From: a virus
IMG/VR virus record: IMGVR_UViG_3300035661_000185
Coordinates: 1-35,801 of that record
Reading direction: 5' to 3' (one strand)
DNA: 35,801 nt
Below are positions 7,721 through 9,747 of the stretch, one piece after another. Below the pieces are notes generated by a model, which was not told the origin of the DNA, did not search any database, and saw only the letters and a list, made by a program, of their open reading frames with translations. Position 1 is the stretch's first letter; every line of letters begins with the position of its first letter. The position numbers were made by a program, and so were the translations under genes.

Positions 7721-8611
7721 ATGACAACGACTAAGTCCAAGCAACTCACTTATTACAACGAGATTGACCCCTACGCGGCCCAGTGGCTGCGTAATCTGAT
7801 TGCAGCCGGACACATTGCGCCCGGTGAAGTAGACGAAAGGAGCATTGAAGATGTCAAACCCGAAGACCTCACAGGATTCACACAGTGCCACTTCTTCGCC
7901 GGAATCGGCGTATGGAGTCACGCGCTGCGAAAGGCCGGATGGCCTGATGATCGTCCCGTGTGGACAGGTTCCTGCCCATGCCAACCTTTCAGCACGGCAG
8001 GCAAAGGCACGGGGTTCGCTGACGAGCGGCACCTGTGGCCAGCATGGTTCCACCTCACCGAGCAGTTACATCCTCCAGTCATCTTTGGTGAGCAAGTTGC
8101 GAGTCCGTACGGCTATGCTTGGCTCGATCTTGTTCAAACTGACATGGAAGCGTCAGGCTACGCCTTCTGTCCGGTCGTTCTACCAGCTGCGGGCTTCGGC
8201 GCGCCGCACGGACGGCATCGGATTTACTTCGTGGCTGACTCCGACAACCAGAGACGGGAAAGATGGATCGGAATGCAAGAACGTGCCAATCGCAAGTTGG
8301 ACTACTCCAATGGCGAACGACGCAACAGGGAGCACGCACTGCTACGGCCCAAGGAAACCAGACGGGGGGCGAACGAAGTATTTGAAACTTCCTGGGCAGG
8401 CGAACCTTGCGCAGCACATCCGACGAACGGCTTCTGGAGAAACGCTGACTTGCTCTTGTGCAAAGACGACAAATGGCGGCCGGTTGAACCCTGCTCATTC
8501 CCGCTGGTTGATGGGGCTGCCGCCAGAGTGGGACGACTGCGCTCCTACGGAAATGCCATCGTCGCGCCGGTCGCAGAGGCGTTCGTTAGAACGTTCATGA
8601 TGGCTGTATAA
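7721..8611 (+). CDS. C5-cytosine DNA methyltransferase (Dcm type)
   Basis: 296 residues. Motif I is FFAGIGVWSHALRKAGW. Motif IV is GSCPCQPFSTAGKG with the catalytic Cys. Motif VI is FGEQVASP, a variant of the usual ENV in which the Glu is kept. Motif VIII is GAPHGRHRIYFVA. Motif X is SYGNAIVAPVAEAF. The order is canonical, but about 65 residues precede motif I, including the sequence YYNEIDPYAAQWLRNLI. The target-recognition region is short (about residues 185-255). A second long reading frame with its own ribosome site runs inside this gene, so this region is under double constraint. Likely role: protecting phage DNA from host restriction. Confidence 0.92.
   Translation: MTTTKSKQLTYYNEIDPYAAQWLRNLIAAGHIAPGEVDERSIEDVKPEDLTGFTQCHFFAGIGVWSHALRKAGWPDDRPVWTGSCPCQPFSTAGKGTGFADERHLWPAWFHLTEQLHPPVIFGEQVASPYGYAWLDLVQTDMEASGYAFCPVVLPAAGFGAPHGRHRIYFVADSDNQRRERWIGMQERANRKLDYSNGERRNREHALLRPKETRRGANEVFETSWAGEPCAAHPTNGFWRNADLLLCKDDKWRPVEPCSFPLVDGAAARVGRLRSYGNAIVAPVAEAFVRTFMMAV
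7851..8600 (+). CDS. Overprinted gene inside the methyltransferase
   Basis: A 249-codon frame starts at ATG 7851, 8 nt after AAAGGAG (7836-7842), and ends 11 bases before the methyltransferase stop, read one base apart from it. The product begins MSNPKTSQDSHSATSSPES. It contains WLTPTTRDGKDG, GSTHCYGPRKPDGGRTKYLK and LNPAHSRWLMGLPPEWDDC. I recognise these motifs from hypothetical phage proteins found at methylase loci in other genomes, so I think both frames are translated. Function unknown; the Trp-Pro-Thr-Pro-like repeats and basic Ser/Arg tail give no enzyme. A long frame alone would not be proof; the ribosome site and motifs are the case. Confidence 0.75.
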   Translation: MSNPKTSQDSHSATSSPESAYGVTRCERPDGLMIVPCGQVPAHANLSARQAKARGSLTSGTCGQHGSTSPSSYILQSSLVSKLRVRTAMLGSILFKLTWKRQATPSVRSFYQLRASARRTDGIGFTSWLTPTTRDGKDGSECKNVPIASWTTPMANDATGSTHCYGPRKPDGGRTKYLKLPGQANLAQHIRRTASGETLTCSCAKTTNGGRLNPAHSRWLMGLPPEWDDCAPTEMPSSRRSQRRSLERS

Positions 8612-8701
8612 GTGAACTACCGTGCACCATTATCCAGTACCCGGAACTCGAAACCTCCTGATTTCCCCTTGACCCATAAGTTAACCCTTGAAAGAAAACA
8701 A

Positions 8702-9652
8702 ATGTCATTTGTCCACGAAACCATCAAGAATCGCGAAGTACAGATTACGCTAGCAGCTCCTGAGATCAAGCAGGAAATCATGCAAGCCATGGACAACAAC
8801 CTCCGAATCACCAAAGAGCGCGTGAAAGCCTGGAGTTCATGCGCCCAGGGCTACCGCTGGTTCCTTGAAAAATTCCCCCAAGGAGGAGAGTTCGCAGAGG
8901 TCTATGCAGCTCTGCAACTAGATAAAAAATATAGGGATTCACGCTGGCTAGCAGACAAAGTATTTGCTGAACTGGATGCACCGGTCAAGGTACAACAGAC
9001 CGCTCTAATTTATGGTGCCGATAAATCCAAGATTGAAAAGTCGGTAGCTGATGGTGCAGAAGGAACCACAACGGGCGACAGGGCTAACGCCGCCACAGCG
9101 GGCGTAGGTGCCCACGCTGCCACAGCGGGCGACTGGGCTAACGCCGCCACAACGGGCGACTGGGCTAACGCCGCCACAACGGGCGACTGGGCTAACGCTG
9201 CAACAACGGGCGAAGGTGCCCACGCTGCCACAACGGGCGACAGGGCTAACGCCGCCACAGCGGGCGAAGGTGCCTACGCTGCCACAGCGGGCGACTGGGC
9301 TAACGCTGCCACAGCGGGCGTAGGTGCCAACGCTGCCACAGCGGGCGACAGGGCCCACGCTGCCACAGCGGGCGACTGGGCTAACGCTGCTACAACGGGC
9401 GACTGGGCTAACGCTGCCACAATGGGCGACAGGGCTAACGCTACCACAACGGGCGAGGGCGCCGTAGCTTCCGCACTTGGGTTTGCTGCTGCGGCAAAAG
9501 CATCTGCTGGTGGTGCCATCGTCCTGGTACATCGCACCGAATGTGGTGAACTGCTGCATATTCGTGCCAGTAAGGTAGGCGAGAACGGTATCAAGCCAAA
9601 TGTGTTTTACAAGCTGAGCGCTGCCGGTGAGTTTGTTGAAGTGGAATTGTGA
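8702..9652 (+). CDS. Repeat-rich beta-roll-like protein
   Basis: 316 residues from the ATG at 8702. A GTG start at 8612 is possible but would add 30 residues of unconvincing sequence. Residues 1-120 form a conserved-looking helical domain (MSFVHETIKNREVQITLAAP). Fifteen 9-residue units of the form G-D-W-A-N-A-A-T-T follow, then a C-terminal domain with GGAIVLVHR, IRASKVGENGIKPN and FYKLSAAGEFVEVEL. Regular Gly/Ala units with small residues inside suggest a left-handed beta-roll as in YadA-type heads, possibly trimeric. Proteins of this build are seen in phage early regions without known function. It has no signal peptide, so it is probably cytoplasmic. Confidence 0.8.
   Translation: MSFVHETIKNREVQITLAAPEIKQEIMQAMDNNLRITKERVKAWSSCAQGYRWFLEKFPQGGEFAEVYAALQLDKKYRDSRWLADKVFAELDAPVKVQQTALIYGADKSKIEKSVADGAEGTTTGDRANAATAGVGAHAATAGDWANAATTGDWANAATTGDWANAATTGEGAHAATTGDRANAATAGEGAYAATAGDWANAATAGVGANAATAGDRAHAATAGDWANAATTGDWANAATMGDRANATTTGEGAVASALGFAAAAKASAGGAIVLVHRTECGELLHIRASKVGENGIKPNVFYKLSAAGEFVEVEL
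9074..9478 (+). repeat. 27-bp coding minisatellite, 15 units
   Basis: Fifteen in-frame 27-bp units encode G-(D/E/V)-(W/R/G)-A-(N/H/Y)-A-A-T-(T/A). Several neighbouring units are identical at the DNA level (for example the GACTGGGCTAACGCC units), pointing to recent duplication. Variation concentrates at unit positions 2, 3 and 5, which would be surface positions of the coil. Confidence 0.9.
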
Positions 9653-9747
9653 ACCAGCCCCGACTCGGATCATTCATTGATGCCTGGATCAACGTGGCAA
9701 TTGGATTTGCGATCAACTTCGTTGCCTGCCACTGCTGGCACCGATGA
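9649..9747 (+). CDS. DUF7220-like small membrane protein, apparently shortened
   Basis: The GTG at 9649 overlaps the preceding stop (GTGA). The product starts MNQPRLGSFIDAWINVAIGF, a pattern I associate with DUF7220, small phage proteins with a conserved QSRLxS...E start and two membrane helices. Here the frame ends after 32 residues (VACHCWHR), part-way through where the second helix would run. The hydrophobic sequence LPLLAP continues in the -1 frame and leads into the next ORF. It may be a truncated or frameshifted copy. Confidence 0.45.
   Translation: MNQPRLGSFIDAWINVAIGFAINFVACHCWHR

Follow-up and report, generated by a model that had tools for sequence, protein, structure and literature searches.

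The window analysed here is a stretch of viral DNA of 35,801 nucleotides (positions 1 to 35,801 of IMG/VR record IMGVR_UViG_3300035661_000185). It harbors a C5-methyltransferase gene (7721-8611, plus strand, 296 aa; hereafter alpha) within which lies a second open reading frame of 249 codons (7851-8600, plus strand; hereafter beta), starting with ATG, in phase +1 relative to alpha and wholly embedded in it. This arrangement raises the question of whether beta is a gene at all and, if so, what its product contributes to the methylase. A preliminary description of this DNA had proposed a second gene that starts from its own ATG, with AAAGGAG eight bases upstream; this layout is confirmed in the sequence (AAAGGAG at 7836-7842). 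Its product had been imagined as a partner or a regulator of the methylase.

Among the neighboring genes of the 35.8 kb record are those for a RecT-like annealing protein and a RecE-type exonuclease, along with tail and head genes; on the basis of this neighborhood, the enzyme looks like an orphan methylase of a tailed phage, and a scan of ten window ORFs revealed no restriction enzyme. The next gene (8612-9652, 346 aa) belongs to PHROG 4433, of unknown function, and has a long series of ANAATTGDW-type repeats, from which a long ORF on the opposite strand (9005-9673) probably results. The features of the locus are the following:

7721-8611, plus strand: alpha, large polypeptide of a C5-cytosine methyltransferase (PF00145, E 2.9e-17; PHROG 363, E 2.4e-87; AlphaFold model matching the M.HhaI large domain, Z 11.5)
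7836-7842, plus strand: AAAGGAG, ribosome-binding site of beta, 8 bases before its ATG and within the alpha E-R-S codons (seen in the sequence; GGAG kept upstream in 51/70 relatives; alpha codon choice)
7851-8600, plus strand: beta, polypeptide of 249 aa overprinted in frame +1, proposed subunit for target recognition and motif IX (no stop in 70/70 non-redundant relatives; PHROG 1008, E 3.6e-29; constraint on alpha synonymous sites)
7851-7853, plus strand: ATG of beta, formed by alpha GAT G (Asp-Val) (alpha Asp codon choice)
7892-7909, plus strand: alpha motif I, FFAGIG (alignment of relatives; weak alignment with the M.HhaI motif I region)
7976-7993, plus strand: alpha motif IV with the catalytic Cys, PCQPFS (invariant in 46-48 relatives)
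8087-8098, plus strand: alpha motif VI, GEQV, usually ENV (invariant in the alignment; aligned to M.HhaI ENV)
8198-8224, plus strand: alpha motif VIII, GAPHGRHRI (near-invariant; aligned to M.HhaI GIPQKRERI)
8241-8420, plus strand: variable region, under constraint chiefly in the beta frame and proposed to be the target-recognition domain (codon-position rates in 23/24 independent pairs, replicated in two other sets)
8484-8531, plus strand: putative motif IX of beta, LNPAHSRWLMGLPPEW, beta residues 212-227 (near-invariant; the single-chain enzyme of phage Magnar has this pattern in frame, immediately ahead of its motif X; shared profile PHROG 1008)
8546-8572, plus strand: alpha motif X, YGNAIVAPV (YGNA invariant; C-terminal helix of the large domain in the model)

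Conservation of the overprinted frame

The beta frame was checked in 70 non-redundant relatives in which both frames are intact, most of them picked via beta. No stop codon interrupts it in 19,851 codons, whereas the other four frames (three antisense and the remaining sense one) contain stops in 69-70 of the 70 loci. When alpha was recoded synonymously, using either its own codon usage or that of its neighbors, beta stayed open in 0.07% of the trials, with 4.6-5.7 stops expected over its 249 codons; under such recoding about 0.6 of the 70 relatives would have an open beta, compared with the 70 observed.

In order to lessen the selection bias, a second set of 78 non-redundant loci was gathered through alpha alone. 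A beta frame in phase +1 is present in all 78, and in 71 of them it is open throughout the match; none of the seven flagged loci is clearly broken. In five of these, the ancestral ATG runs immediately into a TGA, and a new ATG in the same frame lies three codons further on; L150 meets its stop only at the far end of the match, and L154 and L067 are one contig, on which beta forms an intact frame of 239 codons. Stops in beta next to an intact methylase were what the preliminary description had set against its own proposal, which survives this comparison. The only clear case of a genuine internal beta stop with an intact alpha among the loci examined was found in a beta-selected locus (L035, position 2244), which could represent a decayed copy or a sequencing error.

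The sequence ATGTGA is found at the ancestral beta start of L054, L061, L088, L102, L108, L109, and L139; a new ATG in frame lies three codons downstream, as if the start of beta had moved in these relatives. In another locus (L059, 1980-3398), the beta frame extends to 472 codons, beyond the end of alpha, possibly by fusion with a downstream gene.

Moreover, alpha codon choice favors the ATG and the GGAG of beta. The alpha Asp codon that forms the beta start is GAT in 178 cases and GAC in 16, the corresponding numbers elsewhere in non-overlapped alpha being 253 and 328, and the alpha Arg codon at the ribosome-binding site ends in GG in 124/194 cases vs. 306/1144 elsewhere; these sequences are related, so that the counts are not independent. 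The integrity of beta in 70/70 relatives, the stops in the other frames, the outcome of the recoding, and the constraint on alpha synonymous sites over the overlap (see below) together establish that beta is a real, conserved, and selected second gene.

Frame-specific selection along the gene

In the overlap, the third codon position of alpha corresponds to the second position of beta, and the wobble position of beta corresponds to the first position of alpha. The synonymous-site analysis in both frames, which had been recommended in the preliminary description, revealed that alpha synonymous sites are constrained wherever beta overlaps. Over 26 independent pairs, alpha third positions diverge by 0.29 upstream of beta and by 0.17 across alpha motifs I-VIII; the value is 0.08 in the stretch encoding motif IX of beta and 0.25 from motif X on.

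The variable region, extending from motif VIII to the conserved stretch before motif X, has a different behavior: here, the divergence is 0.33 at alpha position 1 vs. 0.18 at position 3, and position 1 exceeds position 3 in 23 of 24 independent pairs (p = 3e-6). The same switch was obtained in two other sets. Among prophage loci from bacterial genomes, position 1 is ahead in 10/12 pairs within the variable region, and upstream of it position 3 is ahead in 12/12; among strongly diverged viral loci, the figures are 15/16 and 16/16, respectively. According to these data, the dominant coding frame along the gene is that of alpha, then that of beta, and again that of alpha from motif X on. The region between motifs VIII and IX is coded mainly by beta, since its changes fall at the beta wobble position. 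This, in turn, would imply that the target-recognition region most likely resides in beta, unlike what had been assumed in the preliminary description, in which alpha holds this region and beta merely constrains it, and unlike what was predicted for M.EcoHK31I, where it was likewise placed in alpha.

The variable region of beta (residues 131-190, alignment A1) is lengthened by repetition of W-P-T-P modules, of which some relatives have few and others several; these may be exchangeable recognition modules.

A methylase probably divided between two polypeptides

Alpha belongs to the C5-methylase superfamily, as indicated by the match to PF00145, the catalytic PCQ motif, and the presence of a class I methyltransferase fold. 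Its AlphaFold model superposes on the M.HhaI large domain over 165 residues (rmsd 3.2) and is confident over most of residues 8-180 approximately (except for the loop 88-99) and over the motif X helix (281-295); residues 181-278, with alpha modelled alone, have a pLDDT below 50 and are unfolded in the model. Motifs I-VIII and X are conserved among the relatives, and motif IX is absent. Its pattern is found in the alpha frame of one out of 230 distinct alpha ORFs, which is the single-chain control from Mycobacterium phage Magnar, and in the +1 frame of 202 of the 230. Thus, alpha does not correspond to a complete single-chain enzyme, as motif IX is missing and the 181-278 region is unfolded in the model.

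The PHROG 1008 profile that matches beta in the window also matches the overprinted frames of Paenibacillus, Mycobacterium, Vequintavirus, and Porphyromonas phages and, with an E-value of 4e-30, the C-terminal residues 187-274 of the Magnar single-chain methylase. In a BLASTP comparison, beta residues 211-227 align with residues 225-241 of the Magnar enzyme, which harbors the same pattern (RVSAEFYEWLMGLPRGW) in-frame just before its motif X. On the basis of this shared profile and position, LNPAHSRWLMGLPPEW is taken to be motif IX. Two motifs of beta had been singled out in the preliminary description: both are present, and LNPAHSRWLMGLPPEWDDC is nearly invariant in the relatives, whereas CYGPRKPDGGRTKYLK falls in a poorly conserved part. 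The best motif had also been thought to share its bases with the target-recognition region of the methylase; it is encoded instead by the bases of a conserved alpha stretch (..WRPVEPCSFPLVDGAAARVGR..) just before motif X, where alpha conserves the pattern FW..RPVEP..FPL.

No match to beta was retrieved from Pfam or NCBIfam, and its profile did not retrieve any sequence of a solved structure even at E 10. The AlphaFold model of beta alone (mean pLDDT 57) has no recognisable domain and was not used for fold searches; being so poor, it gives no structural support to a C5-methylase small-domain fold.

Both frames are selected, the motifs are divided between them, and the coding frame switches along the gene. 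Very probably, then, as far as sequence comparison can tell, the locus specifies one C5-cytosine DNA methyltransferase encoded as two polypeptides by the same DNA. Alpha (frame 0) would provide the AdoMet-binding catalytic domain with motifs I-VIII and the closing motif X helix; beta (frame +1), translated from a second, internal start with its own ribosome-binding site inside alpha, would supply the small domain, i.e., motif IX together with the variable region for target recognition. Alpha and beta would associate into the active enzyme, as the M.EcoHK31I subunits do, each needing the other for activity and with beta setting the specificity; such an orphan methylase would protect the phage DNA from host restriction. 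Against this reading stand the poor model of beta, its failure to match Pfam or solved structures, the published placement of the M.EcoHK31I target-recognition domain in alpha, and the constraint on the N-terminal half of beta (residues 1-130), to which this reading gives no role.

Other explanations have to be weighed against a two-polypeptide enzyme whose recognition subunit is beta. Strong codon bias in +1 overlaps can lengthen open frames, and beta might in this way be an untranslated by-product of the codon bias and the conserved protein sequence of alpha; but the rarity of open frames after same-usage synonymous recoding compared with their presence in all 70 relatives, the depletion of alpha synonymous change over beta and not outside it, and the codon choice favoring the beta start and GGAG leave this idea with hardly any probability. 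A separate regulatory or accessory protein, such as an inhibitor or a transcriptional regulator acting outside the catalytic complex, would agree with the conservation of beta alongside alpha, with its own start, and with the lack of a recognisable domain in its model. It is nonetheless improbable, because motif IX is found in beta and is missing from alpha, the beta profile is common to the C-terminus of a single-chain methylase, and the variable region between motifs VIII and IX is constrained in the beta frame. Beta is therefore most likely, from these sequence features, the second subunit of the methylase and not its regulator, so that of the two roles first imagined for the second gene that of partner is retained and that of regulator is dropped.

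Along the DNA, motifs I-VIII (alpha), IX (beta), and X (alpha) follow each other as in a single chain, as would be the case if programmed frameshifting joined alpha to beta after motif VIII. A single shift would lose motif X, however, so that two shifts would be needed; moreover, beta has its own conserved ATG and GGAG, and the five alpha-selected loci with a stop after the old ATG and a new ATG fit independent initiation. Such frameshifting appears very improbable, and it was rejected, as were a chance open frame and a regulator. A further possibility is that the enzyme does consist of two polypeptides with the specificity residing in the middle region of alpha, and that beta gives only motif IX as a structural piece. 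This would agree with the published description of M.EcoHK31I (PMC3404938) and with the conservation of the alpha stretch before motif X, but the higher rate at alpha position 1 than at position 3 in the variable region, seen again in two sets, and the lack of a fold in alpha 181-278 in the model make it unlikely.

The alpha-beta-alpha order of the dominant coding frame along the gene is also the domain order of a single-chain enzyme. This colinearity suggests a single-chain ancestor whose recognition region was put out of frame by paired shifts.

Distribution, annotation, and comparison with known systems

Among 93 scored non-redundant and diverged viral C5-methylase loci, motif IX is overprinted in the +1 frame in 66, in a survey that relied on fixed motif patterns, included loci of shared lineages, and in two out of three diverged viral searches began from an overprinted enzyme. 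Of the remaining loci, two have motif IX in the alpha frame, one has it only beyond the alpha stop, and 24, some of which are truncated, have no match to the motif IX pattern; 56 further viral loci, lacking a match to the motif VIII pattern, were left unscored. The overprinted form is commoner than the single-chain form in the diverged viral sets examined. Given the 66 loci, the overprinted layout, as recognised by its motif patterns, is widespread among phages, and it is mostly unannotated. Many records name only alpha or label beta as hypothetical, and only alpha is listed in phage PVN06 and in the plasmid hits. The reverse omission was observed in Porphyromonas phage018a (L251, 1475-2089), where the beta frame is annotated and the methylase alpha frame is left out. 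No report of widespread overprinted phage methylases was found in the open-access papers searched.

These data might be read jointly: overprinted two-polypeptide enzymes would be the prevailing form of phage C5-methylases, with one fold threaded alpha-beta-alpha and the frame of beta being the original one over the recognition region, having arisen from a pair of frame shifts in a single-chain gene and not from the invention of a new protein, and with the specificity subunit missing from most annotations. We give this reading as a whole an even chance. The half that most likely sets specificity, on the sequence evidence, is left unannotated in many records; if this is true, the annotated gene cloned alone would yield an inactive enzyme, and specificity predictions based on alpha alone would fail. 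The locus would also offer an exceptionally clear natural example of a single protein fold specified by two overlapping frames, the dominance of which changes from one part of the gene to the next.

The overprinted gene is real, as had been proposed, but its product is not new, given PHROG 1008, the annotation in phage K1G, and the tested two-polypeptide enzyme M.EcoHK31I (PMC3404938). ORF30 of E. coli phage K1G ("Mte8-like protein") is homologous to beta and occupies the same overprinted position inside a C5-methylase gene; the record annotates it by name only, with no function assigned. The single-chain enzyme of Mycobacterium phage Magnar (gp43) has the same motifs in the same order, sharing PHROG 363 with alpha and, at its C-terminus, PHROG 1008 with beta; unlike in the window, all motifs lie in one frame, and the frame corresponding to beta is broken by stops. 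A search for close relatives of this enzyme gave only one near-copy.

Another naturally split C5 enzyme, M.AquI, also consists of two polypeptides (PMC3404938). Unlike in the window locus, its second polypeptide has motif IX as well as motif X; as motif X (YGNAIVAPV) stays on alpha, an AquI-type split was rejected for the window. Genes 38/39 of Gordonia phage Camerico (L249, 1447-2293) look AquI-like, with motifs IX and X on a second, slightly overlapping polypeptide.

The beta polypeptide of M.EcoHK31I, according to Lee, Kam and Shaw 1995, is reportedly encoded in another frame within alpha. This enzyme, which methylates YGGCCR and whose natural split has been put to use (PMC3439449), consists of a large polypeptide with motifs I-VIII and X and a small one with motif IX; its target-recognition domain was placed in alpha by prediction and not by assay (PMC3404938). 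None of the plasmid records retrieved in our searches was annotated as EcoHK31I, and the enzymes were compared through the published description, according to which the division of motifs between the polypeptides is the same as in the window. Here, too, the second frame lies within the large-subunit gene (+1, in the same phase in all relatives), the large subunit has motifs I-VIII and X without IX, and the small one has the putative motif IX (8484-8531). The window differs in being a phage locus and in the variable region being selected in beta, in contrast to the published prediction. Judged from its sequence, the locus is of the M.EcoHK31I type by every defining feature that could be tested.
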